From assembly GCF_019704315.1 (NCBI RefSeq), contig NZ_AP024597.1, forward strand, positions 1,302,001 through 1,366,000: 64,000 nt of DNA, given 5' to 3'. Below are positions 5,277-40,668 of the stretch, piece after piece. Every line of letters begins with the position of its first letter. Position 1 is the stretch's first letter. Made by a program: the position numbers and the translations under genes. Under the pieces are notes generated by a model. It made no database searches. It was given only the letters and a program-made list of their open reading frames with translations, and had not been told where the DNA came from. The DNA is from Stygiolobus caldivivus. Lineage in GTDB: Archaea > Thermoproteota > Thermoprotei_A > Sulfolobales > Sulfolobaceae.

Positions 5277-6695
5277 TTATTGGTAGGGTAACCTTATGTA
5301 TTTGGCAATAGTGTCCCTCACCTCTTTAGCAGTAGGTCTCGAGTACAAGGAAGGGGTTATCATCTTGAGGACTAACTCCTTTATTTCCGGCTCGAGCGTG
5401 TCCAAAACCGGCGGGTTCCAGTTACTGAGTACAGAAGACGAGTAAGAGAGTAACTGCATCACGCGGTCCTTGTCACCCCTCACGTCACTTATAGCACTTA
5501 CTATATACTGCAAGTCGGGCCTCTGGATTTTCGGGTCTAAGATTTTAAGGAAAGTCATACCCAACGAGAATATGTCCATTAAAGGCCTTGCGCCTTTCCC
5601 CTTCACCATGTACTCCACTTCGTCGGGCGGGGAGTATTCCGGTGATAATAACGTTATTTGCTCCCTGATCCTCGTAGAAGCCCCTAAGTCCCCTAACTTT
5701 ACCACCAAGTACTGGGTCAAGTCGGCGTAAAGCTCTTCAGGTGTACTGTAGGGCTTTACGATCAAGATGTTCGCCGGCTTAACGTCTAAGTGTGCATAAC
5801 CCTTACTGTGGATCACCCTTAACGCGTCGGAAACGTAATAAAGGATGTAGTACGCTATATACTTCCAATACTTAGAGGAGGTAAAGGCGGGGTTCTCCAT
5901 GTATTTCTTGAGGTCACCGCCCCTCAAGTACTCCATTACTATGTAAGGCGGGTAAAGGTAGTAGGCCTGCTGGTCGTTGATGTACTCCAGAATATTAGTA
6001 TCTACGTGGACCGCGTAGACCTTTACGATCCTCTGGTCTGCGGACATGGATATTATCGCCGACGCCTCGCTCAAAAGGCTCATTAAGTAAGCCTCTAAAT
6101 TTTCGTAGTCCGATTTGGGGATTTTCACCACGTACTCCTTACCCCTACTCTCTGCCTTAAACACATAAGCCACTCCGCCCTGGCCTAAATAGTCCGCGAG
6201 CCTGTACATCCCTATGACCCTTCCCAGAAGGGATCTCGCGACGACGTCCTGGGGGACGTTGACCTGCTGGTTAGCCGGCATTATGAAAGCCTCTTCGTTT
6301 TTTACGAGTTCTAGGTATTGCCTTATTGGGCCGTGGTCTTGTATGAACTTAAAAAAGGGTATTTGACCACCGCTTACCTCGTCTATTACCTTGTCCTCTA
6401 TAGGGACTAAGTACGCACCGTTTTCACCCACTAAGTAAATCGAGTTTATCTTCATGACAACGTATGAGGAGCCGTTCACCCCAAAGGGGAAGGAAATGTA
6501 GACGTAATCGCCTTGCGGGAAACCCGTTACGTCGAACTTCTTTAGTACGTTTATGACCTCGAAGTTATTCCCAAGGAAGACCGATACACCGGCCAAAATG
6601 TTTAACCTCGAATTAGGGGTCAAATAACCTTTCAATACGTTATATAAAGTCTTAGAGTAAGCGTAGTTACCGCTAACAGGGAGTGCTAACCTCAT
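5277..6695 (-). CDS. Hanks-type Ser/Thr protein kinase, soluble
   Basis: The 472-residue product has a family-unknown N-terminal domain (about 1-155) and a kinase domain (about 160-470). Visible motifs are the glycine loop GQGGVAYV (171-178), the ATP-anchoring Lys191 in YVVKIP, catalytic loop HLDVKPAN (302-309; Asp304, Asn309), GDLGAS in place of DFG (Asp336), SPEYSPPDE in the activation segment and DIFSLGM (374-380). All core catalytic residues are present, so it should be active. HLDVKP is typical of archaeal kinases of this order. There is no membrane segment. A TATA box (TTTATATATT, about 6719-6728) gives a leaderless start. It leads an operon with the gene at 4656-5240. Confidence 0.9.
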   Translation of the reverse strand: MRLALPVSGNYAYSKTLYNVLKGYLTPNSRLNILAGVSVFLGNNFEVINVLKKFDVTGFPQGDYVYISFPFGVNGSSYVVMKINSIYLVGENGAYLVPIEDKVIDEVSGGQIPFFKFIQDHGPIRQYLELVKNEEAFIMPANQQVNVPQDVVARSLLGRVIGMYRLADYLGQGGVAYVFKAESRGKEYVVKIPKSDYENLEAYLMSLLSEASAIISMSADQRIVKVYAVHVDTNILEYINDQQAYYLYPPYIVMEYLRGGDLKKYMENPAFTSSKYWKYIAYYILYYVSDALRVIHSKGYAHLDVKPANILIVKPYSTPEELYADLTQYLVVKLGDLGASTRIREQITLLSPEYSPPDEVEYMVKGKGARPLMDIFSLGMTFLKILDPKIQRPDLQYIVSAISDVRGDKDRVMQLLSYSSSVLSNWNPPVLDTLEPEIKELVLKMITPSLYSRPTAKEVRDTIAKYIRLPYQ

Positions 6696-9862: not shown

Positions 9863-10213
9863 ATGAACCTCGTAACCCTTGCACAATTAATACTCTTAGT
9901 TTTAAGGGATTTAAATTTTAAGCCGAGAAAACACGAGCCGGAAGACCTCGCTTACACAATAGCAGCATACTTACTAGGAGTACAAGTCACCAAGTTAGGG
10001 ATACCGCCATCAACACTATACTACTACACTAAAAAACTCGGGGTAAAGAGGAGGAGAGAAGAAAGGCCACCTTGCCCCTCGTGCAAATCAAACAGAGTAG
10101 TAAAGGACGATCAGCTAGAGGAAAAACAAAATACAAGTGCAAAACTTGCGGGAAGACGTCCTACCAAGCGACAAACCACAAGATGGGTAAAGAACAAAAG
10201 GAGAGAGTACTGA
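9863..10213 (+). CDS. IS1-family transposase, upstream frame (InsA-like)
   Basis: The likely start is the ATG at 9863 (MNLVTLAQLILLVL). The frame encodes a helical DNA-binding region and the first half of a zinc finger, CPSC, near residue 73. The second CKTC half lies in the overlapping -1 frame, which shows that the functional transposase is a frameshift fusion. The slippery run is AAAAAC at 10122-10127; IS1 of E. coli uses A6C for -1 frameshifting. Alone, this frame would make a short DNA-binding protein that may repress transposition, as InsA does. Confidence 0.75.
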   Translation: MNLVTLAQLILLVLRDLNFKPRKHEPEDLAYTIAAYLLGVQVTKLGIPPSTLYYYTKKLGVKRRREERPPCPSCKSNRVVKDDQLEEKQNTSAKLAGRRPTKRQTTRWVKNKRREY

Positions 10214-10812
10214 AAGAATACACGAATAGGATGAGCATGAGGGGGATAGCGAGGGTCGAAGGGAAACCGTTAACTACAATATACAGCTTTATAAGGAGGA
10301 AAGGGGTAGAAGCGTATGCTTACCTACTACTCTTGCAAGGACGGCTGGAGGGTTTCACGGCAAAAGCTACAGTGCTCGACGAGAGTTGGACTTACGTGTG
10401 GGCCAGACATGGGCGAAAGAGGGAAGACTTGTGGGTATGGAACGCGTTGGCAGATGGTGTGCCCTTCTTTATCACGGGTGATAGGGATTACATGACTTTC
10501 AGCTCCCTCCAGGACCCCCTACCCGAGAGTAGGGTGTACTACACTGACGGTTATTCAGTTTATCAAGTACTCGACAAACACGTTGTGGGTAAAGAGTATA
10601 CTTACACTGTGGAGAGTTATCATTCTTACTGTAGGGCCCACTTGGCTAGGTTGGCAAGGGACACGAGGGCTGTTAACAGGGACGTGGGGATAGTCGAGTA
10701 TAGTCTTGCCTTGTTGAATGTCATGTACCCGGTAGTTTACTCGAGGGAGAAAACTCCGTTGAACGAGGCTTACTTGAAGGGGATACACTATATTAGAAAT
10801 AAACTGATATAA
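10072..10812 (+). CDS. IS1-family transposase, catalytic frame (InsB-like)
   Basis: This frame supplies the second zinc-finger pair (CKTC) and the DDE-type catalytic domain. VLDESWTYVWARHG matches DEQWGYVGAK of E. coli InsB, YYTDGYSVY matches WMTDGWPLY, and TVESYHSYCRAHLARL matches RIERHNLNLRQHLARL, giving Asp, Asp and Glu as catalytic residues. It is probably expressed as a fusion from the ATG at 9863 through -1 frameshifting at 10122-10127, not from its own start. Copies B and C encode nearly identical proteins. Confidence 0.85.
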   Translation: MPLVQIKQSSKGRSARGKTKYKCKTCGKTSYQATNHKMGKEQKERVLKEYTNRMSMRGIARVEGKPLTTIYSFIRRKGVEAYAYLLLLQGRLEGFTAKATVLDESWTYVWARHGRKREDLWVWNALADGVPFFITGDRDYMTFSSLQDPLPESRVYYTDGYSVYQVLDKHVVGKEYTYTVESYHSYCRAHLARLARDTRAVNRDVGIVEYSLALLNVMYPVVYSREKTPLNEAYLKGIHYIRNKLI

Positions 10813-11808: not shown

Positions 11809-14800
11809 ATGAATGGAGTACTATTTAAAAGAATAACCCTAATTATGTTAGCCATTATACTCCTAGGAATAGCCCAACTAATGACGTACTCACAAGTGAC
11901 CCCACCGTCTCCCGCGGTAGGCATAGTAGACGAAGGGGAAGCCCCGGTGAGCGGGCAAGGGATCGTAACGTACTCGTACACTTCGTCTAACGTAGGCGGT
12001 ATTTTTACTCTCAACTCAGCACAGACCAGCGGGCCGTTCTCCCTACAGTTAAACTCCGTAATCGCGCTAAGTAACGGCCAGTACTACTGGTCTAATGACG
12101 TCGCCCTGATAAAAAATGTAGGGGGTAACACCTACCAGATAACTATAGAGGACTACTTGTGGAACTTTTCTGCACCCTACTCCAGTATAAACCAAGGACT
12201 GATAAGGGGTTCGGGGGGCGTGGAGACCTATAACGGGATACAGTTCTATTACTATTCCTATAACACTTATACTGTTAGTTCACCCTTCACGTTACTACTC
12301 GAGACCGCTGCGATAATGGGTTACCAAGGTTACCCGGTAGTGTTCCAGTACTTCGAACTGTTGAACAGTAATGGCAGTGAAGTCGCTGGCGGTACATTTG
12401 ATACGATTGAACTGTTTGTCCCTTCTTCCAGTGCGTACATCGTAGTAGGGGGCACTAACCCTACCGGTAGCGGTAATTATTTGTCATTCGTCATAGGTGG
12501 TCCGGTATATGGGACAGAGTTAGGGACTACGGTGGACATATATTCGTGGAGCGCCTCCATGAGTATGGCCTATTTATCCAATTCTGGGAGTACCTTCTAC
12601 AACGTGCCCGGAGGATATTCCACTACCTACGAAGCACTATCTGGAGTTTCGACTTCCCAAGGCATAGTCGAGTCCTTTAGCGGTGAACAAGTAGCACAGA
12701 CGGCCGGACAAACACGGTCAGAATTTTTATGGACCGTGTCTTCGTTTATCAAAGCCTTCGGGAATAACGTCTATATAACTACAATCCCCGGCGGGGCAGA
12801 CTGGGTGTTGAGCGTTTCAGGCCCAGAAAGCTTCTCAAAGAATTTAATAAACTCTACTACAGAACTGTCCTTACCCGACGGCTCTTACTCGTTATCCCTA
12901 TCACTTAACGTCCAAGGTAATACCTTGTACTCAACGTCTTACTCCGTCTCATTACCTTATGCAGTAGAGGTAAGGGTTATCTCTCCCGTGCCCACTTACC
13001 GTGCTAACGGGGTGCCGGAAAACGTAAACACTACGTTATCCTTACCCGTACCCTCAGTACTCCAATTCAACGAGACATATTACTTGTCTAATACAGAACG
13101 TTATTTCCTCCGAGGCGTGGAAGTAAACGGGGCGTTTTATCCCAATACGACGATATATTTGACTACTGCGGGGTTCTACACTATAACCCCCCAATATGTA
13201 CTGCAATACTACTTAAACGTACCGTTCCAAGTCAAGGCCTACGTCAATAACGCCTTGATGACCATAGGGTCTGGCTGGTATGACGCAGGGACTACTATAC
13301 AAGTCCCCCCACAGAACGTAAGCGTTAACGGGGCCCTTTATGAAATACAAGGGACTACTTTCGTAGTGGACTCACCGGACTTCTCGCTACCCTTTGAAAT
13401 CTACTATTACGTCAGTGTGTCACAGCCAATACCGGCAAACGTAAACGGCCTCAACCAGACCATCTCCTCCGGGTATTTTAAAGAAGGCACCACAATCACA
13501 ATCTACAAATACTACTACATCAACTCATCCGCTAGATACGAAATAAACGCCAACCAATACCAGATAACAGTAAGAGCCCCCGTTAGCCTCACAGCCTCCA
13601 CTCAACTCCAGTACCTAGTCACACTTAACCTACCCAACGGTACCGTCACGGAGTGGATCACACAAGGCTCAATACCCACGATACCCTCGATAATACAAAT
13701 ATCCAGCAACGAACGTTACGCCTTAGCCCAAAGCGTCACCGAAGGGATTAACGCCCCCACCACCATCACACCCCAATACACCACACAATACCTCGTGACG
13801 GTAGAACTCCCCAACGGCACGACCCGCTTATGGGTCACACAAGGCTCAACATACGACCTATCCACGACAATACAAATAAACTCCACCACAAGGTACCTAC
13901 TACTCTCCCAACAAGAGTACACCATAAACTCCCCACAAACCCTAACACCCGACTACGTCACCCAATACCTTGTTACACTTAACCTACCCAACGGTACCGT
14001 CACGGAGTGGGTCACACAAGGCTCAATACCCACTGTACCCTCGATAATACAAATATCTAGCGACGAAAGGTACTACCTCAACACGACACTAAGCCCCGTG
14101 TACGGGAGCGAGACGATAACCCCACCGTACGTCGTACAGTACTTAGTCACAATAGGGGACAGCCAAGAATGGGTATCACAAGGCTCAAAAATACCACTAA
14201 ACCAGCCCAACCCCAACCCCTTCGTTAACGTCTACTGGCAAGGCAACGTCAGCGCCCCTAACGGGCAATACATACAAGTCAGCGGGCCCATATCGGAGAG
14301 GCCAGTATACGCCATAAACGTCCTGAGCATACTGCTCCTCGCAGTCCCGTTCGGGGCTGCAGGCATAGGGGGTTACCTAGTGTACAACAAGAGGAAGGAA
14401 GTAGTACTCTCCTTCGACATACCGGAAGGTCTCGCTTCAACTATCAGGGTCAAGGTAAATGGGGACGAGATGGTACTCAAAGGGAGGACACTGAGGGTCA
14501 GGAGGGGTAGTCAAGTGGAAGTAGATGACGTCGTCCACGAAAATACTGTGTTGACCCCGGTCATGAGGAACTTCGTTGCAGGGAAGTCCATGAGGGTAGG
14601 GTTCCAACAGAGGACTCTCGACTTGTCCAAGTTCGACCCCGGACTATGGGTAGGGAGGAGGATAGACTCCTACACTGTAGACAGTGTCATAGGTGAAGGG
14701 GGGACCAGCTACGTATTAAAGGTCATAGGTGCGGACAACAACGTGTACGCCATGAAGGTCATGAAGGTAGTCCCTACACCGGGGAGCACGATGACGATGG

Positions 14801-15594
14801 GCATGAGGAACTTCCAGGAGCTGTATAAAGAGCTTAACAACTTGATTGAACTGTCGACTAAGACGGACGCTGTAGTTAAGGTAGTCGGGGGTAAGGTCGA
14901 CTTCCCTACCCTGATGAACATAATGAAAGGTAACGTGGAGTTGTACTTGACTTCCCCGCCCTACTTGGTCATGGAGTACATGAGCGGGGGTACTTTGTCT
15001 AAGTTAATGGGCAACCCCAATGTCAGGAACTCTAGTGTGTGGGAGAAGATAGTGGTCAGGGTGGTGTATGACGTGGTAAGGGCCTTGTATTTCGTCCACT
15101 CCCAAGGGTATGTACACTTAGACGTGAAGCCGCATAACGTGTTCTTTACTAAGTACCCCGGTGACGTGGGTGATGAGGTGTATAACAACCTAGTTAACGG
15201 GAACACTCAGGTGAAGCTTGGTGACCTGGGTAGTGCGGTTAAGGTGGGTAACCCGGTGACACAGCTGACTTTGGAGTACTGTGCACCGGAGCAGTTGGTG
15301 AACCCGGCGCACCCGAGTATGGACATTTATGCTGTGGGGAGTATGGCTTATGCCCTGCTCACGGGTAAGTACTTTAACGACGTGACCTTGGTCAATAAAG
15401 CGTTTAATGAGCTTTCGACGCCAGCTTTCCAGAACACTTATAATGAGTTGTTGAAGAGGGTGACGGAGAAGTGGGCGTCGTTACCTGATGACGGCTTGAT
15501 GGGGATTATAAAGAAGATGTTGAACCCCGACCCTGCTCAGAGGCCTACGGCGTCGGAGGTGGCCAACATGTTATACTCGTACTTGACGGGGTGA
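11809..15594 (+). CDS. Transmembrane receptor-like Ser/Thr kinase with thermopsin-like ectodomain
   Basis: The 1261-residue product has a signal/anchor helix (residues 8-25) and a thermopsin-like domain (about 36-320: VGIVDEG for PxGIADYG, SLQLNSVI, YWSNDVALI, TIEDYLWNF). A beta-rich region follows with imperfect repeats of the form YLVTLNLPNGT...W(I/V)TQGS (about 600-800), then one membrane helix (about 838-858) and NKRKE as cytoplasmic stop. After a 100-residue linker comes a complete kinase domain (about 955-1261): GEGGTSYV (962-969), Lys983, HLDVKPHN (1103-1110; catalytic Asp1105), GDLGSA (Asp1139), LEYCAPEQ and DIYAVGSMAY. All catalytic residues are present. The architecture is that of a receptor kinase with an outside sensing or protease-like module and a cytoplasmic kinase. 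The next gene, a PPP phosphatase, overlaps it by 4 nt. The final domains are clear; the ligand is unknown. Confidence 0.92.
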   Translation: MNGVLFKRITLIMLAIILLGIAQLMTYSQVTPPSPAVGIVDEGEAPVSGQGIVTYSYTSSNVGGIFTLNSAQTSGPFSLQLNSVIALSNGQYYWSNDVALIKNVGGNTYQITIEDYLWNFSAPYSSINQGLIRGSGGVETYNGIQFYYYSYNTYTVSSPFTLLLETAAIMGYQGYPVVFQYFELLNSNGSEVAGGTFDTIELFVPSSSAYIVVGGTNPTGSGNYLSFVIGGPVYGTELGTTVDIYSWSASMSMAYLSNSGSTFYNVPGGYSTTYEALSGVSTSQGIVESFSGEQVAQTAGQTRSEFLWTVSSFIKAFGNNVYITTIPGGADWVLSVSGPESFSKNLINSTTELSLPDGSYSLSLSLNVQGNTLYSTSYSVSLPYAVEVRVISPVPTYRANGVPENVNTTLSLPVPSVLQFNETYYLSNTERYFLRGVEVNGAFYPNTTIYLTTAGFYTITPQYVLQYYLNVPFQVKAYVNNALMTIGSGWYDAGTTIQVPPQNVSVNGALYEIQGTTFVVDSPDFSLPFEIYYYVSVSQPIPANVNGLNQTISSGYFKEGTTITIYKYYYINSSARYEINANQYQITVRAPVSLTASTQLQYLVTLNLPNGTVTEWITQGSIPTIPSIIQISSNERYALAQSVTEGINAPTTITPQYTTQYLVTVELPNGTTRLWVTQGSTYDLSTTIQINSTTRYLLLSQQEYTINSPQTLTPDYVTQYLVTLNLPNGTVTEWVTQGSIPTVPSIIQISSDERYYLNTTLSPVYGSETITPPYVVQYLVTIGDSQEWVSQGSKIPLNQPNPNPFVNVYWQGNVSAPNGQYIQVSGPISERPVYAINVLSILLLAVPFGAAGIGGYLVYNKRKEVVLSFDIPEGLASTIRVKVNGDEMVLKGRTLRVRRGSQVEVDDVVHENTVLTPVMRNFVAGKSMRVGFQQRTLDLSKFDPGLWVGRRIDSYTVDSVIGEGGTSYVLKVIGADNNVYAMKVMKVVPTPGSTMTMGMRNFQELYKELNNLIELSTKTDAVVKVVGGKVDFPTLMNIMKGNVELYLTSPPYLVMEYMSGGTLSKLMGNPNVRNSSVWEKIVVRVVYDVVRALYFVHSQGYVHLDVKPHNVFFTKYPGDVGDEVYNNLVNGNTQVKLGDLGSAVKVGNPVTQLTLEYCAPEQLVNPAHPSMDIYAVGSMAYALLTGKYFNDVTLVNKAFNELSTPAFQNTYNELLKRVTEKWASLPDDGLMGIIKKMLNPDPAQRPTASEVANMLYSYLTG

Positions 15595-16463
15595 GAGGCG
15601 TGACGGGAGACGAGGTAGAGAAAATATTAGAAAGTGCTAAGGACATATTCAGGCAACAAGGGAGCTATATCGGGAAAGTTAACGCTGAAAGGGTACTTTT
15701 CATAGGGGACACCCACGGTGCGGTCAACGTCACAGACGTCGCTAAATACTATTATGACAAAGTCGACCTGATGGTGTTCTTAGGGGACTACGTGGACAGG
15801 CAACCGCCCAACGGGATCGAGAACCTGCTCACGGTACTCAACCTTTTGGTCAACGACGGGGGTAGAAAGGTAATCGTCCTGAGGGGTAACCACGAGAGCC
15901 CCCTCACCAACTACTACTACGGTTTTTATAGGGAAGTAAAGGAAAAACTCGGTGAAGGTTATTACCCTAAATTCGTAGATCTGTTCTCGTTGATGCCCGT
16001 AAGCGTGACAGTCAACGGTTATTTCTGCACCCACGGTGGGCTGCCCGGGCTCTACAACAGCAACGGTGAAATGGAGTTGGGGATATACAGTGAAGACGAC
16101 TTGTATGGACTGCCTAAAGGCGACATAATCCCCGACGACCCGATACTTTTTCAACTTCTGTGGAACGACCCAAACAGTGCCATAGACTACTTCTCGCTAA
16201 ATAAGAGGGGAGAGGGGGTCTTCTACTTCGGCAGGAAGGTGACAGAAGACTTCTTAGTGAGGACTAACTTCAAGGGTGTGATAAGGGCTCATGAGACTGC
16301 TGACGGGTTTAAGGTAGACCATAACGGGAGGGTGATTACGGTGTTTTCGAGCATTTATCACAAACAGAGGGCGGGGCTATTATTTTTAAACAATGTCGGC
16401 GAGTTCTCTAGACTGTATATAAGCCAAGACGGGAGCGCACAAATAGTCCAAGGGCTTTACTAA
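15591..16463 (+). CDS. PPP-family Ser/Thr protein phosphatase
   Basis: The 290-residue product starts at a GTG that overlaps the kinase stop (GTGA), so translation is probably coupled. It shows the PPP metallophosphatase signature: GDTHG, GDYVDR, GNHE, THGG and a distal RAHE, which supply the two-metal centre and the phosphate-binding Arg and His residues. The usual VDRG is VDRQ here. Its length fits PP1/PP2A-type catalytic cores. Placement directly after a receptor kinase suggests it reverses that kinase's phosphorylations; this pairing is inferred from the operon. Another GTG at 15600 is a possible start. Confidence 0.93.
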   Translation: MRGVTGDEVEKILESAKDIFRQQGSYIGKVNAERVLFIGDTHGAVNVTDVAKYYYDKVDLMVFLGDYVDRQPPNGIENLLTVLNLLVNDGGRKVIVLRGNHESPLTNYYYGFYREVKEKLGEGYYPKFVDLFSLMPVSVTVNGYFCTHGGLPGLYNSNGEMELGIYSEDDLYGLPKGDIIPDDPILFQLLWNDPNSAIDYFSLNKRGEGVFYFGRKVTEDFLVRTNFKGVIRAHETADGFKVDHNGRVITVFSSIYHKQRAGLLFLNNVGEFSRLYISQDGSAQIVQGLY

Positions 16464-18774: not shown

Positions 18775-19515
18775 TTATATCAGTTTACTCCTAATATAGT
18801 GTATCCCCTTCAAGTAAGCCTCGTTCAACGGAGTTTTCTCCCTCGAGTAAACTACCGGGTACATCACGTTCAACAAGGCAAGGCTATACTCAACTATCCC
18901 CACGTCCCTGTTAACAGCCCTCGTGTCCCTTGCCAACCTAGCCAGGTGGGCCCTACAGTAAGAATGATAACTCTCCACAGTGTAAGTATACTCCTTACCC
19001 ACAACGTGTTTGTCGAGTACTTGGTAAACTGAGTAACCATCAGTGTAGTACACCCTACTCTCGGGTAGGGGGTCCTGGAGGAAGCTGAAAGTCATGTAAT
19101 CCCTATCACCCGTGATAAAGAAGGGTACACCATCTGCCAACGCGTTCCATATCCACAAGTCTTCCCTCTTTTGCCCATGTCTGGCCCACACGTAAGTCCA
19201 ACTCTCGTCGAGCACTGTAGCTTTTGCCGTGAAACCCTCCAGCCGTCCTTGCAAGAGTAGTAGGTAAGCATACGCTTCTACCCCTTTCCTCCTTATAAAG
19301 CTGTATATTGTAGTTAACGGTTTCCCTTCGACCCTCGCTATCCCCCTCATGCTCATCCTATTCGTGTATTCTTTCAGTACTCTCTCCTTTTGTTCTTTAC
19401 CCATCTTGTGGTTTGTCGCTTGGTAGGACGTCTTCCCGCAAGTTTTGCACTTGTATTTTGTTTTTCCTCTAGCTGATCGTCCTTTACTACTCTGTTTGAT
19501 TTGCACGAGGGGCAA
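18775..19515 (-). CDS. IS1-family transposase, catalytic frame (copy B)
   Basis: The 246-residue catalytic frame is nearly identical to that of copy A, with the same Asp (VLDESW), Asp (YTDGYSVY) and Glu (TVESYH) and the CKTC half of the zinc finger. It differs at a few residues shared with copy C (GQKREDLWIWN, TFSFLQD), so B and C are closer to each other than to A. Expression requires the upstream frame, which is disrupted here. Confidence 0.8.
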   Translation of the reverse strand: MPLVQIKQSSKGRSARGKTKYKCKTCGKTSYQATNHKMGKEQKERVLKEYTNRMSMRGIARVEGKPLTTIYSFIRRKGVEAYAYLLLLQGRLEGFTAKATVLDESWTYVWARHGQKREDLWIWNALADGVPFFITGDRDYMTFSFLQDPLPESRVYYTDGYSVYQVLDKHVVGKEYTYTVESYHSYCRAHLARLARDTRAVNRDVGIVEYSLALLNVMYPVVYSREKTPLNEAYLKGIHYIRSKLI

Positions 19516-21097: not shown

Positions 21098-21170
21098 AAA
21101 TAATTTTTATAAATACTCTAATATTTTTATAAATGTTTATTAAATTTAATAACTGTTTTAAAATACTCTC
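21098..21170 (-). mobile_element. Decayed IS1-family end, A/T-drifted
   Basis: On the minus strand this matches the transposase-proximal IS terminus over about 73 bp (TATTAGAGTATTTATAAAAA retained). The terminus reads GAGAGTATTTTAAAACAG against GGGAGTGTTCTCAAACAG. Most differences are G to A or C to T. It is closest to the left part of the MITE at 38137. It lies about 100 bp before the start of the membrane kinase gene. Confidence 0.7.
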
Positions 21171-21267
21171 AAGTTACTTGAGGTGCTTATCGACGAGTAA
21201 GGATCAATCTGCCCGTGCCCTATTTGTTCATGAAAGTTTTTATTCTTTTTTAGTATTCAGTATAGTC

Positions 21268-23193
21268 ATGGAAAATAAAACTATATATGGTTTAAATTTC
21301 CTTTTTATCATATTATTGTATACGTGGGCGTTTTTTGTAGCTGTATTTTATAATTTATTCACCTTATTCTTATTTTATACTTTTACGCTCCTCTTCTTAG
21401 TCTTACCCTTGTATATAGTAAAAAGTAAGGCTACGATCTACGTTCTCTCTCTTACCTACTTCTATCCATTTATTTACGGGTTCTTAACATTTACAGATCC
21501 TACCATCGTATTTAACGTATTAGTATTGGAGCTTGTCTTTTCCGTTTTCGGTCTCATACCCGGTTTTATGATCTTGTATAGAGGTAAGGGCTCTAAAAGT
21601 AAGGTCGTTAACGGGATTGGTATCTTATTTACACTAATTGAGGCATTTTTCAACTTAGAATATGAAGCCTCCAATATACCTGGCTTTTATTATAGTACGT
21701 ATGTTTCGTTTGAAGTCATGGCCGCGTTAAGCCCCTTATTCCTCGTGGCCGTGTTCAGCACTATTAGGGTCCTACCTATGGTCAAACGGAAGGACCAAGC
21801 GTATTATTACCCACCTACCCAACAACAGCCAGTTACACAACAGTACTACCCACCTAATGTACAGCAACCAGTTACACAACAATACCCAGCTCCCCAGCAA
21901 TACCCCCCTCAGGTACCAACACAACCACCTTATAGGCCCAATCCGCGGGCAGCTGTCCTCATATACAGGGGGCTACCCCCGAACTGCCGACCGAGGATAT
22001 CCATTAAGGGGAACTTGTACGTACCGCGTGTATATTACCAAGGGGACTATATCTTCGAGTTACCGACAGACATTGTGCTGATCGTGGGGAATATAAAATG
22101 TCAGAACATGATATACATACCGGACGAGATGAGGGTGAGCGTTAAGGTCGGCAGGGTCACGGTTATAAATTTCAGGCCCGTAATACCCCTACAACAGGGC
22201 ACGGGCCAAGCCCCGTTACAAGCCCCTTCAGTAGCCCTCATGAAGAGGAGCCTGACGGACTGGGACCCCAACGTCTGGGTAAACCGTAACCTTTCGGTAT
22301 ACAAGATAGAAAAAGTCATCGGGGAGGGGGGTAACGGTTACGTATTAAAGGGTAGCTATTCCGGTAAATACTTTGCCGTCAAAGTCCTGAAACTTTACGG
22401 CGGTAGCCCAGAAGAGTATTTTAAGGACTTAGCCACTGAGGCGTCAAATTTAGTGAACTTGTCGAACCACAAGAACATAGTGAAGGTCTACGCTGTCAAC
22501 GTCGACTCATTCGTAATAGACGAGATATTAAAAGGTAAAGTGGAGACATATGTAGTTAACCCGCCCATGATAGTTATGGAGTTCATGGAAGGCGGAACCT
22601 TGAAGGACTTATTGGAAAACGACATGTTTTATTATAGTTCCAAATGGCAGAGGGTCGCCTTGAAGGCCACGTGCGAGGTCGCACAAGCCTTAGACTATAT
22701 ACACTCTCAAGGCTTCGTTCACATGGACGTTAAACCGCATAACATATTCCTTACTGTTAAGCCTAGAGACTCAACAGAACTCGAAACTTTGGGCTTTAAG
22801 CTTGGTGACTTGGGTAGTGCAGTGAGGATTAACGGTAAGATAAAGCAAGTGACCCCCGAATACTCCCCACCGGAAGTGTTTGAGACCACCGCAAAACCGT
22901 ACTTTGACGTCTTCGCGTTAGGGATGACCGCTTATGTGCTTTTGACGAGGAAAGTCGATAGGCCTGACTTACAGGAGATGATCGACGCGATCGACTGCTA
23001 TGTGAAAAACGACATGGTCTGCGTAAGGGATCTAATAAACAACAGCAAGAACAAGCTAGCTACGTGGACTATAAGTATAGACCCTAAGGTAGACCAGTTA
23101 CTAAGGCATATGCTCACGGCCGACCCGTTAAAAAGGCCTACTGCTAAAGACGTAGTGGACATGATAAGGAGGATAGACCCTACTATTTGTTGA
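21268..23193 (+). CDS. Polytopic membrane Ser/Thr protein kinase
   Basis: I start at ATG 21268 because an open extension to 21133 runs into the IS remnant. The 641-residue product has about five hydrophobic segments (residues 8-160) and a Gln/Pro-rich linker (YYPPTQQQPVTQQ and similar, about 175-225). A beta-rich juxtakinase region follows, then a full kinase domain: GEGGNGYV (352-359), Lys372 in FAVKVLK, HMDVKPHN with catalytic Asp487, GDLGSA (Asp514), TPEYSPPEV and DVFALGM. Catalytic residues are complete. The segment just before the kinase (DPNVWVNRNLSVYKIEKVIGEGG) matches that of the receptor-like kinase (DPGLWVGRRIDSYTVDSVIGEGG), so the two share a common module. Likely a membrane-bound signalling kinase. 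Confidence 0.88.
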   Translation: MENKTIYGLNFLFIILLYTWAFFVAVFYNLFTLFLFYTFTLLFLVLPLYIVKSKATIYVLSLTYFYPFIYGFLTFTDPTIVFNVLVLELVFSVFGLIPGFMILYRGKGSKSKVVNGIGILFTLIEAFFNLEYEASNIPGFYYSTYVSFEVMAALSPLFLVAVFSTIRVLPMVKRKDQAYYYPPTQQQPVTQQYYPPNVQQPVTQQYPAPQQYPPQVPTQPPYRPNPRAAVLIYRGLPPNCRPRISIKGNLYVPRVYYQGDYIFELPTDIVLIVGNIKCQNMIYIPDEMRVSVKVGRVTVINFRPVIPLQQGTGQAPLQAPSVALMKRSLTDWDPNVWVNRNLSVYKIEKVIGEGGNGYVLKGSYSGKYFAVKVLKLYGGSPEEYFKDLATEASNLVNLSNHKNIVKVYAVNVDSFVIDEILKGKVETYVVNPPMIVMEFMEGGTLKDLLENDMFYYSSKWQRVALKATCEVAQALDYIHSQGFVHMDVKPHNIFLTVKPRDSTELETLGFKLGDLGSAVRINGKIKQVTPEYSPPEVFETTAKPYFDVFALGMTAYVLLTRKVDRPDLQEMIDAIDCYVKNDMVCVRDLINNSKNKLATWTISIDPKVDQLLRHMLTADPLKRPTAKDVVDMIRRIDPTIC

Positions 23194-25847: not shown

Positions 25848-26582
25848 GTGCCCCTCGTGCAAATCAAACAGAGTAGTAAAGGACGATCAGCTAGAGGAAA
25901 AACAAAATACAAGTGCAAAACTTGCGGGAAGACGTCCTACCAAGCGACAAACCACAAGATGGGTAAAGAACAAAAGGAGAGAGTACTGAAAGAATACACG
26001 AATAGGATGAGCATGAGGGGGATAGCGAGGGTCGAAGGGAAACCGTTGACGACAATATACAGCTTTATAAGGAGGAAAGGGGTAGAAGCGTATGCTTACC
26101 TACTACTCTTGCAAGGACGACTAGAGGGTTTCACGGCAAAAGCTACAGTGCTTGACGAGAGTTGGACTTACGTGTGGGCCAGACATGGGCAAAAGAGGGA
26201 AGACTTGTGGATATGGAACGCGTTGGCAGATGGTGTACCCTTCTTTATCACGGGTGATAGGGATTACATGACTTTCAGCTTCCTCCAGGACCCCCTACCC
26301 GAGAGTAGGGTGTACTACACTGATGGTTACTCAGTTTACCAAGTACTCGACAAACACGTTGTGGGTAAGAGGTACACTGTGGAGAGTTATCATTCTTACT
26401 GTAGGGCCCACTTGGCTAGGTTGGCAAGGGACACGAGGGCTGTTAACAGGGACGTGGGGATAGTTGAGTATAGCCTTGCCTTGTTGAACGTGATGTACCC
26501 GGTAGTTTACTCGAGGGAGAAAACTCCGTTGAACGAGGCTTACTTGAAGGGGATACACTATATTAGGAGTAAACTGATATAA
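25848..26582 (+). CDS. IS1-family transposase, catalytic frame (copy C)
   Basis: The 244-residue frame keeps the zinc-finger half CKTC and the catalytic Asp, Asp and Glu (VLDESW, YTDGYSVY, TVESYH). It lacks two residues before the Glu (GKRYTVESYH against GKEYTYTVESYH), very near the active site, so activity is doubtful even if supplied in trans. Confidence 0.75.
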   Translation: MPLVQIKQSSKGRSARGKTKYKCKTCGKTSYQATNHKMGKEQKERVLKEYTNRMSMRGIARVEGKPLTTIYSFIRRKGVEAYAYLLLLQGRLEGFTAKATVLDESWTYVWARHGQKREDLWIWNALADGVPFFITGDRDYMTFSFLQDPLPESRVYYTDGYSVYQVLDKHVVGKRYTVESYHSYCRAHLARLARDTRAVNRDVGIVEYSLALLNVMYPVVYSREKTPLNEAYLKGIHYIRSKLI

Positions 26583-33393: not shown

Positions 33394-33546
33394 GTTAAAC
33401 CCCCAAAAGGGGTTGAAAGGTACTTGGGTTAATGTCTTAGGGAAGATTAAATGCAAAAAGTTAAAACCCCAAAACGTTTTGAAAGATATTCCCCTGGTAA
33501 TCGTCTTTGCTCTTCAAATTCGACTGTTAATCAAAGGGGTTGAAAA
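33394..33546 (+). CRISPR. Vestigial CRISPR-like mini-array (three units)
   Basis: Three units share GTTAA...AAA(A)GGGGTTGAAAG. Unit 1 (33394-33419) and unit 2 (33460-33485) match at 22 of 26 positions; unit 3 (about 33526-33546) is shorter but keeps CAAAGGGGTTGAAA. Units 1 and 2 are 66 bp apart, a typical repeat-plus-spacer period, and the CCCC...GGGG stem and TTGAAAG 3' end are typical of archaeal CRISPR repeats. The unit differs from the main array's repeat. A small frame at 33374-33592 crosses all three units and is probably not a real gene. Confidence 0.45.
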
Positions 33547-33677
33547 ACAACGTTGGGAGGTGTTAAAGAAATTTGACCAGATAAAGGACTAGTTTATTGG
33601 GGAAGGTGACTGTGGTAGTTACTTCTGCGGTTCGGCGTCGCAGGCAGCGGGGGCTTTAGCCTCCTTTTAAGGGCAAG

Positions 33678-33713
33678 ACTATTTTTAACCTTAGAACTAT
33701 TTTTAACCTTAGA
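33678..33713 (+). promoter_or_regulatory. Tandemly duplicated TATA element
   Basis: The 18-bp unit ACTATTTTTAACCTTAGA occurs twice in perfect tandem (33678-33695 and 33696-33713). The second copy's TATTTTTAA lies about 27 nt before the ATG of the ATPase gene at 33730, in the right place for a leaderless promoter. Confidence 0.6.
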
Positions 33714-33729
33714 AGGGTAAATTTTACAC

Positions 33730-34740
33730 ATGGAAGAAATAGGGAAGTATAAAGAGGTCGTCCAAGCCGTAGAGGTCTATAGCCTCAGAGGCATAAGTGT
33801 TGCAGACCACGAGACGCTGGACCCTCCTAGGCTTTTACCCAAGAAAATTAACGTGATTACGGGCTGTAACGGCTCCTTTAAGACGACTTTCCTCGAGGCC
33901 CTCACTGTCTCGCTTTTTATGACCTCTGCCAACATCCCCAGGACGGTTTTAGGGCTTGCATCGACTTTAAGGATGGACCCCCTGTGGTATTACTTATTGG
34001 CTAGGGACGGGGTCGACATGTCCGTAAACGGGTATAGGGTTACATCGGCGTCTTTAGATGACCTTAAACAAGTAGGCCCGGTCGTTGCAATTGTTAACCC
34101 CGTCGGTTTTAAACTATCTAAGGATGGTGACACAAGGATATTACGGGTGGACCTAACTTCGGTTTTACCTCAATCCGTCGGGATTACCCTTCGTAGTGAG
34201 ACAAGGAAACCTTTGCCTAATTTCACTTTCATCTCTTTCTCTATGCCAAACCCGATAACTCCTGACTTCGTGAATAACTTCTCTCCCTTAATAAACTTTT
34301 CAAAGGTTAAGGAACTCCTGAAGAAGGTGTTAGGCTTCGACCTAATAGGCGTAAAGGTCGACGAATTAAACAGGATGAACTTTGTAGTAGCTGAAGGTGA
34401 TAGGGATGTAGAAATACAACTCTTAGGTAGTGGTTTCGCCTCTCTTCTGTTACTTATTTTGGCATCGAGTAACGACGTCGTGATTCATGACAACATAGAG
34501 AACCATTTACACCCCCAGTTAATGTTAAAGGCTATAGACCTAATGAGGCAGAGTAGCTCCCAGTGGTTTATAACTACACAAAGTATAGAATTCCTTAACT
34601 ATTTACTTACAGCATACCCTGAAGGTGTGATGATTTACGAATTCCTTAAGAGGGACAAGGTACACGTCAGACAGATAGAAGGTAAAAAAGCTAAGGAACT
34701 TATTGATGAGTTATATGAAGACTTAAGAGGGCTCTGTTAG
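33730..34740 (+). CDS. OLD-like / AAA_15-type ABC ATPase
   Basis: The 336-residue product has a Walker A GCNGSFKTT (45-53), a signature-like LLGSGFASL, and a Walker B region DVVIHDNIENHLHP (about 249-262) followed by WFITTQS. This is the ABC-type head arrangement of the OLD/RecF-like ATPases (AAA_15/AAA_21) without a long coiled coil. The usual (I/L)DEIE is HDNIE, with the catalytic Glu kept as the second acid. The next gene, a TOPRIM protein, overlaps its stop by one base, so together they resemble a split OLD nuclease; paired ATPase/TOPRIM defence systems such as PARIS (AriA/AriB) have the same layout. Assignment as a defence pair is inference. Confidence 0.75.
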   Translation: MEEIGKYKEVVQAVEVYSLRGISVADHETLDPPRLLPKKINVITGCNGSFKTTFLEALTVSLFMTSANIPRTVLGLASTLRMDPLWYYLLARDGVDMSVNGYRVTSASLDDLKQVGPVVAIVNPVGFKLSKDGDTRILRVDLTSVLPQSVGITLRSETRKPLPNFTFISFSMPNPITPDFVNNFSPLINFSKVKELLKKVLGFDLIGVKVDELNRMNFVVAEGDRDVEIQLLGSGFASLLLLILASSNDVVIHDNIENHLHPQLMLKAIDLMRQSSSQWFITTQSIEFLNYLLTAYPEGVMIYEFLKRDKVHVRQIEGKKAKELIDELYEDLRGLC

Positions 34741-35312
34741 TGAGAGTACTATTAGTAGAAGGGCCTACCGACGCTAAATTCCTAGCGGGCCTATTGGGCA
34801 TTAACGACTTAAATACGGCTAGTATGGTAGCTCAAAAAATAGTGAGTGGGTATAGATGTTATAGCCACAAAGACGTATTAATTTGTGAAGGGGGAGGGAA
34901 GTATAACGTTTGTAAAAGAGCTATAGAGTTAGACAAGCTATTAACTGAGAAGAAATACAACTTTGAGGTTTATGTACTCCTTGACGGAGACGCCAAAGAA
35001 ATTGAATGTGATGTAGGGGATACGTTCCACCTGAACAGTAGAAACTTAGAAGAACTCGTGTTTTTATCTGCGTTCAAGGTCCTTTCTACACATGATTATG
35101 CCTTACATCTACTAGAAAAGGAAAAGGACAATGCTGATTCGAAACTAAAAGCTTACTTACTGATGTATCTCATCAAAAAATATGAAGCCCCCGGAGAAAA
35201 TTGGACTGATATCTCTTCATTCCTCTATTTTGTTGGGAAAACGTACAAAGAGCAACTATTATCACATGATGAAAGCCTACACCGCTTATTTGAACTGCTC
35301 AGTAACGGGTAA
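34740..35312 (+). CDS. TOPRIM-domain protein, partner of upstream ATPase
   Basis: The 190-residue product starts at a GTG overlapping the ATPase stop. It has the TOPRIM motifs LLVEGPTDAKFL (Glu near residue 7, Asp11) and VLLDGD (Asp-x-Asp near residue 83), the metal-binding set of OLD-type nucleases, primases and topoisomerases. The C-terminal half is helical. At this length it fits the compact archaeal DUF3226/OLD-type TOPRIM proteins. Its translation is probably coupled to the ATPase; the two likely form a nuclease complex. Confidence 0.7.
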   Translation: MRVLLVEGPTDAKFLAGLLGINDLNTASMVAQKIVSGYRCYSHKDVLICEGGGKYNVCKRAIELDKLLTEKKYNFEVYVLLDGDAKEIECDVGDTFHLNSRNLEELVFLSAFKVLSTHDYALHLLEKEKDNADSKLKAYLLMYLIKKYEAPGENWTDISSFLYFVGKTYKEQLLSHDESLHRLFELLSNG

Positions 35313-36060
35313 AAGATGAAAGAAAACTCGTTAAGTAAGCCCAGTCAATACCTAAGGGGCCTCCGCTCAGTACCGAAAGCTAAATGCGAGAACTTCGGTT
35401 CGACTTCGTCTGGGATACAGCCGTTAGTAAGGGTGAAACTATGAGGGCGGCCCTAACGGGCGGGTTGAAGGAGGTCCCGTACGAGGTAGTTAACGAGTAT
35501 GACAAGGAGGGTCTTAAACCTGAAGTAGGTAAGGAAATTTTGAAGAACGACGCATGAGGAACACCTTTTCCTGAGGGGTGCTGGGGAAGAGGGGCTTAAG
35601 CGGGGCTCGAGAAGGCCTTACTTGAGCTTAAGGAAACGGAGTTTAATGGCGACCACTTCCACGTGGCTCATGTCGTTTCTAAACTCAAGTACTTCACTGT
35701 TCTTAGGTATGGAGCGTATTCCCAGCCACGACATGGGGGAGCTTCATCGAGCGTCTCTTTCCCGCTGGGGACTGCTCACGGAGTCCATTGTGGTACCCCA
35801 TCCCCCGCGCTAATCGACTCAAAAAAAAATACTTAATTAAATTTCGATGAGCAATATGGCTCCAGCTCACCCAGTGTAGCCACGAGGATTAGGAGAATTA
35901 AAAAAGCTAAGAGTTACGTTAAACTTGTTACAGACTTAGAGCCCCCTTTTACTTATCGCAGTGTCTGTTATGGAGTTAGAGGAGTGGGTTTGTAGGGGGC
36001 CTTAAGCACGAGTTACGCCGTGGGTAAACGCTTTTTAGGTTTGATTAACTAATATTGAGT
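35313..36060. other. Gene-poor stretch with a gene fragment
   Basis: It holds a 38-codon frame (ATG 35441 to TGA 35557; reads GLKEVPYEVVNEYDKEGLK) that looks like part of a lost gene, and other short frames of no clear meaning. An A-run and A/T-rich DNA at 35820-35850 are the only promoter-like features. Confidence 0.35.
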
Positions 36061-36495
36061 ATGGACAGGCTTGACTACGTCCTAGGGATTTTACGGTTAG
36101 CGAAGGACTTAAACGTTGAGGTGACTGCGACCAGGTTTCAGAAGACGTTTTTTTTAGTACAGAAAGAATTGGGGAGGGACTTGGGGTATAAGTTCATCCC
36201 TTACTATTTCGGCCCTTTCAGCAAGGAGCTGCAGGACGATGTATATAAGCTGGAGAGGCAAGGGTTTGTAAACGTCGAAAAGGTGGCCGTAGAGGACTTA
36301 GTTACGGGGGCTTTAGTGGGCTTTAAGAAAGCGTATAAGGTCACCGATAAGGCCCCTGTCGTAGAGCTCGATGAAGAGCTAAAGAGTTTTGTAACGGAGA
36401 AACTGAGGATGCCTTTAAACGACTTGTTAAGGTATGTCTACGTAAAGTACCAAGAGTATACTGCACTATCGTTAATTAAAGACGAGGTATTTTAG
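36061..36495 (+). CDS. Panacea/SocA-like antitoxin candidate
   Basis: I choose ATG 36061 over TTG 36055. The 144-residue product shows the DUF4065 (Panacea/SocA) or YwgA-like pattern: a helix with TRFQKTFFLVQKELG, then YKFIPYYFGPFSKELQDDVYKLERQGFV. Panacea domains act as antitoxins paired with many unrelated toxins in bacteria, archaea and phages. It is followed 8 nt later on the same strand by a gene of unknown family that carries a membrane segment, the typical two-gene layout of a toxin-antitoxin pair. Confidence 0.65.
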   Translation: MDRLDYVLGILRLAKDLNVEVTATRFQKTFFLVQKELGRDLGYKFIPYYFGPFSKELQDDVYKLERQGFVNVEKVAVEDLVTGALVGFKKAYKVTDKAPVVELDEELKSFVTEKLRMPLNDLLRYVYVKYQEYTALSLIKDEVF

Positions 36496-36503
36496 TGACA
36501 TAG

Positions 36504-37463
36504 ATGCCAAGTGAAAAGATTTTTTCTCTAGAGTATATAGAGGACGGTTTGGTGGACTGGGAAAGGGCTATAGAGACTAAAAATTATATAGACGACAAAA
36601 TAAAAAGAGAAGTAGCAGAGGACAAAAGGGATAAGGAGGATTTATATAGGTTTGAGAGTAGGAAAATCGGAGACCTACAACAGGCTACTGAAAAGATAAG
36701 CAAAGGACTACTTTTAATATACGGCGGGATAGCCTTGCTCCCGTTCTTAATAGTAGCTGGGTTGCGGGACTTCGACATAAGGCACCCAAGAGAGATGGAA
36801 ATGGTCATAAACGAGGCTAAAGAGTTCTTTCGGAAAAGTAGTATACTAAAGGAGGTAGAAGGACTGGGACACACGCCCATATCTGGGTCTAGTTTAAAGA
36901 AATTGCTAGAGCTTATTCAGCATATTTTTAGGAAATATTTGCGAGAAACAGATTTAGCTAAGTGTTATAAGCAGATGGAGAATTTTATAACTAGCGGGCT
37001 TAAATATAAAAGGTGGTACGAATTATGGAAAATTGTAATAGAATGCGAAAAGTCTAACTTAAGCAAATTTAACAGTGAAATACTACAAATTTTCAATAAA
37101 TGTCTAAACGGAGAACTAGAGGCATGTAATCAATTAGGCCTTAATGACGAGAGGTTCAGGAGGCTCACAGAAAACCCTTACATAACTAGTTTTTCTATCA
37201 AGTTGTCAGATATACTGATAAAGGAGGTTTTTGACCTTATCCTCGTGACTTCTTACCTAGAACCTTTAAGTACTATAACAAGATACGGTGCCTCTTCAGG
37301 ACTGCAACAGAATAGAAAGGAGTTACTAGACGACGCTATAGAGAACCAAGATAAAATCATGAATTTCTTAGAACCCAAAATAAATTTAATAAAGAATTTA
37401 TTAAAAAATGACGAGACATTGGACAACTTGAGTTATTTATATGAAAAATTTAAGGACATTTAA
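36504..37463 (+). CDS. Unknown protein with one membrane segment, partner of Panacea-like gene
   Basis: The 319-residue product has a charged helical N-terminus (DDKIKREVAEDKRDKEDLYRF), one clear hydrophobic segment near residues 67-90 (GLLLIYGGIALLPFLIVAG), and a long helical C-terminal part rich in Lys, Glu and Leu. It has no known catalytic motif. Codon use is more A/T-rich than that of neighbouring metabolic genes, which hints at horizontal transfer. Since it follows the Panacea-like gene by 8 nt, it is a candidate membrane-acting toxin; this is inference. Confidence 0.6.
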   Translation: MPSEKIFSLEYIEDGLVDWERAIETKNYIDDKIKREVAEDKRDKEDLYRFESRKIGDLQQATEKISKGLLLIYGGIALLPFLIVAGLRDFDIRHPREMEMVINEAKEFFRKSSILKEVEGLGHTPISGSSLKKLLELIQHIFRKYLRETDLAKCYKQMENFITSGLKYKRWYELWKIVIECEKSNLSKFNSEILQIFNKCLNGELEACNQLGLNDERFRRLTENPYITSFSIKLSDILIKEVFDLILVTSYLEPLSTITRYGASSGLQQNRKELLDDAIENQDKIMNFLEPKINLIKNLLKNDETLDNLSYLYEKFKDI

Positions 37464-40203: not shown

Positions 40204-40668
40204 ATGGGCGAGAGGGTTTTCAAGCCCCTTAAGGGCAGTGAGGAGAGTGATGGGGAAGCTACCAGAGCTGGATTGCCCCTGAAGGTAGAGGGACGAGGTG
40301 AGTTTATAATACTCAGACTAAACGAGGGGGAGCCTGAGCACTGGGCACACTTTGAAGGCGAAGTAGTAATAACTTTCGACAAATACTACAAACCGCTAAA
40401 AGTCGAAATAGAGGTAAAAGACACAATGGACAGCGAAAAAGCCTTGCCAGACATAAAGGGTTATTTTACTTCCGACACCCCCTTTATTGAAATAGATTTA
40501 GTAAAAGACGGCGAGCCTGAGCACTGGGCACACTTTGAAGGCGAAGTAGTAATAACTTTCGACAAATACTACAAACCGCTAAAAGTCGAAATAGAGGTAA
40601 AAGACACAATGGACAGCGAAAAAGTGCTACGAGATGCTGGTCTTCTCCCCCCACGTCGAGAAGCATAA
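40204..40668 (+). CDS. Duplicated small acidic-domain protein, DUF2283-like antitoxin candidate
   Basis: The 154-residue product contains the same domain twice: EPEHWAHFEGEVVITFDKYY followed by KPLKVEIEVKDTMDSEK. The DNA behind it is also repeated: 40330-40441 and 40513-40624 are identical over 112 bp with a period of 183 bp (61 codons), so the duplication is recent or kept identical by conversion. The VVITFDKYYKPLKVEIEVKD part resembles DUF2283-type beta proteins, some of which are antitoxins. The next frame overlaps its end by 35 nt in a different frame. Confidence 0.6.
   Translation: MGERVFKPLKGSEESDGEATRAGLPLKVEGRGEFIILRLNEGEPEHWAHFEGEVVITFDKYYKPLKVEIEVKDTMDSEKALPDIKGYFTSDTPFIEIDLVKDGEPEHWAHFEGEVVITFDKYYKPLKVEIEVKDTMDSEKVLRDAGLLPPRREA

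Follow-up and report, generated by a model that had tools for sequence, protein, structure and literature searches.

In the bacterial anti-virus system PARIS, a class 4 OLD system, an ATPase (AriA) and a TOPRIM protein (AriB) are encoded by adjacent separate genes, and AriB has been described as a two-metal tRNA nuclease (PMC12409363). Class 4, the split form of OLD, was reported in bacteria only in a 2025 survey, which also presents Cran1, a class 5 OLD ATPase-nuclease of the Sulfolobales, as single-chain, undeletable, vertically inherited across that order, apparently not antiviral and acting as a cell-cycle factor (PMC12796447). For the OLD nuclease BpOLD, the active-site residues are given as E400, E404, D455, D457, T506, E508 and K562 (PMC6755086). 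A survey of defence in archaea published in 2026 (PMC12988326) mentions neither TOPRIM nor PARIS in its main text, and our search of the open-licence literature returned no description of a pair of the type reported here.

Here we analyse such a pair in a 64,000-nucleotide stretch of the Stygiolobus caldivivus chromosome, hereafter the window (G000:C1:1302001-1366000; the genome is a single 2.96-Mb contig). Split, patchily distributed and often decayed in the Sulfolobales, the pair is a promising candidate for a defensive branch of OLD that has been missing, and it seems to be distantly related, on the archaeal side, to PARIS and similar anti-virus systems of bacteria.

A two-gene family with a patchy distribution

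A first-pass annotation, made from the letters of the window, had proposed a compact ATPase with an odd Walker B motif (HDNIE), overlapped by a 190-residue TOPRIM protein carrying VEGPTD and LLDGD. Both open reading frames and all of these motifs are present (Table 1), and the genes overlap by one base (TAGTG, 34738-34742), the start codon of the TOPRIM gene opening on the final base of the ATPase stop codon. At a distance upstream of the start similar to that of the window's probable promoter box (Table 1), a TATA-like TTTTTAA is present in Sulfolobales archaeon HS-7 (G167), which carries the pair closest to that of the window, and in G102.

Table 1. Coordinates of the gene pair and its neighbouring features within the window
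Feature	Position	Strand	Remarks
Probable promoter (putative function)	33680..33729	+	CTATTTTTAACC box, two tandem copies, read directly from sequence
ABC-type (AAA_21) ATPase, 336 aa	33730..34740	+	Walker A GCNGSFKT; signature LGSG; Walker B VVIHDNIENHLHP, D-N-(I/V)-E invariant; C-terminal EDLRG tail
OLD-type TOPRIM protein (predicted), 190 aa	34740..35312	+	GTG start; E7, D11, D82, D84 and E104 follow the two-metal pattern seen in class 2 OLD nucleases
CRISPR relic	33399..33550	+	three degenerate repeats (~33399, 33465, 33526), about 60-66 bases apart
Second two-gene module	36055-36495 and 36504-37463	+	740 bases downstream of the pair

The pair is kept in divergent genomes, where identity to the window proteins is 66 and 59% for the ATPase and 58 and 49% for the TOPRIM protein. 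Between the ATPase genes of the window and HS-7, differences at codon positions 1, 2 and 3 are 0.24, 0.16 and 0.58, given here in place of dN/dS, synonymous sites being saturated in nearly all comparisons. Third positions thus vary most, as expected for two selected proteins. This concentration of changes, together with conservation across divergent genomes, excludes chance open reading frames, and the ATPase-TOPRIM pair is a real gene family.

In genome searches the two genes lay next to each other on one strand in Sulfolobaceae and in two further families of the phylum. In the order search (197 genomes), the TOPRIM protein was matched in 6 genomes and the ATPase in 27, mostly by distant AAA_21 proteins; in seven genomes the ATPase match was close (E 9.8e-30 or better). 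Across the phylum (398 genomes), 10 genomes had a TOPRIM match and 12 an ATPase match of E 1e-12 or better. A search of genome contigs with the TOPRIM alignment found HS-7, Thermocladium modestius and Vulcanisaeta sp. UBA163; the single ATPase gave no match there. Intact adjacent pairs are present in G000, HS-7, G102, G205, G271 and Thermocladium. In these six, the ones whose gene junction can be read, the genes abut or overlap by 1-10 bases. The ATPase of the Vulcanisaeta copy (G445) contains a run of X from an assembly gap. Outside Sulfolobaceae, every TOPRIM-bearing genome (5/5) has a family ATPase beside the TOPRIM gene.

Among the 31 Sulfolobaceae genomes counted in the order search, with ATPase and TOPRIM results combined, three carry an intact pair (G000, G102 and G167), one a pair split by an insertion, two the ATPase alone and three only remnants, while 22 have nothing; neither gene was found in G108, the other genome of the window's genus. 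In the split copy (G084), the TOPRIM gene is interrupted by an IS607-type element (L039:10079-12558) encoding a serine recombinase and a TnpB-like protein, both named by eye. The two ATPase-only genomes (G096 and G136) hold an intact ATPase ORF with no family TOPRIM gene nearby, and the remnants are an ATPase fragment (G066), a TOPRIM fragment (G114) and a TOPRIM gene with an in-frame stop (G011). Decay extends beyond this family: the copy in G342 is frameshifted, its ATPase pieces sharing 93-98% identity with the ATPase of G205, G226 has a broken, frameshifted copy, and an ATPase fragment is present in G500. The ATPase of G102 shares 59% identity with that of the window and only 37% with that of G084, a member of the same genus as G102, so the history of the pair is not simply vertical. 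No match to the pair was found in viral contigs, phages or plasmids, so nothing points directly to mobile elements as its carriers.

The two proteins and their relation to known systems

Pfam places the ATPase in AAA_21 (7e-10, above cut-off), and its length fits the lack of a coiled coil, judged by length alone. Wherever the motif can be read, Walker B is D-N-(I/V)-E: this holds for ten of ten family ATPases, nine from our ten-sequence alignment (A4), in which L060 is damaged at this motif and was not counted, and the tenth from Thermocladium. In comparison, 22 unrelated AAA_21 loci from the order search were scanned on both strands; ten without the motif were dropped, and the remaining 12 have Asp-Glu (11) or Asp-Thr (one) and never Asp-Asn. 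On these alignments, the Asp-Asn Walker B is a hallmark of the pair's ATPase family. ABC ATPases that lose the catalytic glutamate of Walker B would generally be expected to bind ATP with little or no hydrolysis. Since Asn replaces this glutamate throughout the family, its sequences suggest that these ATPases hold bound ATP and hydrolyse little or none of it.

At 1e-5, PADLOC profiles matched the ten ATPase members as AbiLi (10/10), PDC-M38A, AriA and PtuA (8/10 each) and mad3 (7/10). As judged by these profiles, the ATPase falls in a part of the superfamily that is rich in defence proteins, but it is not clearly tied to one system; homology to AbiLi, AriA and PtuA spans a huge superfamily and fails to separate them. 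PDB sequence profiles yielded no relative for either protein, with weak SMC, PtuA and Rad50 P-loop matches for the ATPase, nothing meaningful for the TOPRIM protein, and no chain when a DUF3226 relative served as query. The structure model of the ATPase was poor (pLDDT 56) and was kept out of the fold search.

For the window TOPRIM protein, all Pfam matches fall under cut-off (Toprim 0.0065, DUF3226 0.0072, OLD-like_TOPRIM 0.02), the last profile reaching 0.0008 for the best family member; a DUF3226 search of 151 genomes gave a match in four, above cut-off in two. A model built from a four-sequence alignment is confident (mean pLDDT 93.5, pTM 0.88). Plain Foldseek with this model returned nothing at E 0.001 or better, and the structural matches to OLD, AriB and GajA come from VIA re-alignment of Foldseek candidates. 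The top chain was PH0156 of Pyrococcus horikoshii (2p62), a hypothetical protein (Z 12.0 over 176 residues, 17% identity). The C-terminal regions of OLD nucleases (6nk8, 6njv, 6njx, 6njw) align end to end over 149-154 residues with Z 8.7-9.5, just modestly above the noise level of about 7 set by unrelated nucleoside phosphorylases, and PARIS AriB (8ux9, Z 7.8; 8v46, Z 6.3; 155 residues) and GajA (8tjy, Z 6.5) lie at that level. In the TOPRIM alignment (A3), E7, D11, D82 and D84 do not vary, and all six members have N or S at position 102 and E or D at position 104; these residues match BpOLD E400, E404, D455, D457, T506 and E508 by spacing and not by residue-level superposition. The invariant K135 and K137 are candidates for the BpOLD-type lysine. 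The model and alignment together predict an OLD-type fold with a helical extension, in which the two-metal residues are kept.

The first-pass annotation had further suggested that this split OLD-like pair may be an archaeal form of OLD, Gabija or PARIS, to be checked by profile searches. The OLD-like character is borne out by the predicted fold and the conserved metal-site residues, and the split arrangement, patchiness, decay and location beside a CRISPR relic and a second two-gene module of mobile appearance also agree with the suggestion; membership in PARIS or Gabija is not supported by their defining partners. The pair shares with PARIS its adjacent separate genes, an ATPase that matches the AriA profile (6.5e-12) and a TOPRIM model that aligns weakly with AriB. 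It differs in its Asp-Asn Walker B, its archaeal host and a TOPRIM protein of 190 aa compared to about 305 residues in AriB chains. DUF4435 and the AriB profile each reach one of the six TOPRIM members, at best 0.0084 (under the DUF4435 cut-off) and 0.0086, and none of 200 phylum genomes has DUF4435 above cut-off. PARIS was rejected because the TOPRIM protein has no significant DUF4435 (AriB) match. Activation by an anti-restriction protein and cleavage of tRNA are further traits of PARIS. Gabija, whose GajA aligns with the TOPRIM and helical domains at noise level, was rejected as well: the system consists of two ORFs in place of a single-chain GajA followed by a UvrD-like helicase gene, and no UvrD-type helicase was matched by Pfam among the 10 window proteins scanned.

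The TOPRIM and helical domains align with the C-termini of BpOLD and XccOLD, and the spacing of metal residues is common with BpOLD, but the window system has two chains, unlike OLD of classes 1 and 2 and GajA. AbiLi is the best PADLOC match of the window ATPase (5.3e-14), whereas its partner AbiLii has no match in the TOPRIM protein at E up to 1, so the pair was not assigned to AbiL. The PADLOC candidate PDC-M38 is similar in that the PDC-M38A profile (2.9e-12) covers the window ATPase right up to the C-terminal end; PDC-M38B matches one of six TOPRIM members at 0.0087, and we found no paper naming this system in the open-licence literature. In MADS, mad3 and mad4 accompany methylation genes; here mad4 matched two of six TOPRIM proteins (best 1.8e-4), and no methyltransferase was found among the 10 window proteins scanned. 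Cran1 shares the order and the two domain types, but it is single-chain, vertically conserved and not deletable, whereas the window pair is split, patchy and decaying; we rejected orthology on architecture (two ORFs) and distribution (intact in 3/31 Sulfolobaceae). OLD-like_TOPRIM (PF20469) has no match in the window's genome and so points to no Cran1 orthologue there.

Genomic setting

A CRISPR relic noticed in the first-pass annotation lies 180-330 bases upstream of the pair and is supported by two matches to a Sulfolobales-type repeat, with a chance expectation of 0.01, and by a third degenerate copy seen by eye. Good copies of its repeat are found at 1,277 kb on the same chromosome; Rfam gave no match between 25 and 45 kb of the window. 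The downstream module encodes a small protein matching PADLOC PDC-M19A (3e-16) and a 319-aa protein with no Pfam match, and its two genes stand side by side again elsewhere in G000 and in G042 (twice), G066 and G102. It looks like a mobile conflict module. In other genomes, a CRISPR array of at least eight repeats lies about 9.5 kb downstream of the HS-7 pair, RAMP genes lie about 8 kb from the TOPRIM remnant of G114, and the copies in G096 and G226 are adjoined by unrelated ATPase-TOPRIM pairs, the TOPRIM of the former recognized by eye only.

These surroundings are suggestive of defence, but CRISPR is common in these archaea, which counts against reading defence from its proximity. By eye, the neighbourhoods of G271 and the Vulcanisaeta contig are unlike defence islands, and some neighbourhoods look metabolic. 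Across the loci examined, we noticed no constant housekeeping neighbour and no link to repair genes.

The window has other features of its own. A 123-base direct repeat (40319-40441 and 40502-40624, 98% identical) lies within ORF 40204-40668. Three near-identical transposase ORFs (10072-10812, 18775-19515 and 25848-26582) are present, the third an IS1-type DDE transposase by Pfam. The ORFs at 5277-6695, 11809-15594 and 21133-23193 encode large proteins in which protein-kinase-like domains were recognized by eye, and one of them is adjoined by an ORF that is phosphatase-like by eye (15591-16463).

Proposed function and rival explanations

The pair is probably a two-gene OLD-superfamily defence-type module, with the ATPase as sensor or holder and the TOPRIM protein as nuclease. 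The ATPase, probably assembled into an oligomer with nucleotide bound, would bind ATP, act as sensor, and hold or gate the TOPRIM subunit; infection, a viral trigger or loss of nucleotide would change the ATPase, and the TOPRIM subunit would be freed or switched on. It would then cut nucleic acid, either tRNA or DNA, using two metal ions, and this cleavage would stop virus and host together. We infer complex formation, ATP sensing, nuclease activity and its target, the trigger and the role in defence, and the look-alike systems support an effector-module mechanism of this kind.

The main rival is a selfish toxin-antitoxin-like module, in which a TOPRIM nuclease toxin would be held by the ATPase and the genes kept by addiction. 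Patchiness and decay agree with this, as do the orphans: both ATPase-only copies are intact and both TOPRIM-only copies (G114 and G011) are broken. However, the orphans number just four, the ATPases of G096 and G136 (38-40% identity to that of the window) may have other partners, and in the look-alike PARIS loss of either gene is reported to be non-toxic (PMC9122126), so that we consider an addiction module unlikely. The example of Cran1, an OLD ATPase-nuclease also found in Sulfolobales and apparently not antiviral in the account cited above (PMC12796447), raises instead a host role in chromosome biology or the cell cycle. The contrasts with Cran1 in architecture, inheritance and deletability, together with the absence of the pair from G108, make this quite improbable. 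An accessory enzyme of DNA or RNA repair or processing, without immune function, is favoured by the occurrence of TOPRIM proteins and RecF/Rad50-like ATPases in repair and by the weak Rad50/RecF matches, but the patchy distribution, frequent decay, other conflict-type modules nearby and lack of a repair-gene link in the loci examined leave it as improbable as the host role.

Within the defence-type reading, we tentatively propose, as a possibility still on the doubtful side, an archaeal split OLD class in which an ATPase without the catalytic glutamate would serve as an ATP-bound latch and not as a hydrolysis-driven sensor, releasing the TOPRIM protein in response to nucleotide depletion by a virus or to viral displacement of the ATPase. 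The Asp-Asn motif, invariant in Walker B, is a concrete and testable difference in how this ATPase could work, and Sulfolobales genetics and viruses make the pair itself testable.

As a separate observation, five further split ATPase-TOPRIM-like pairs were seen in Thermoproteota (L040:10570-12269, L044:258-1708, L060:7169-8997, L084:1495-3203 and L086:216-2109), three with TOPRIM proteins that match DUF3226 and two with TOPRIM proteins recognized by eye. Archaea may commonly carry OLD-like pairs of this split kind.
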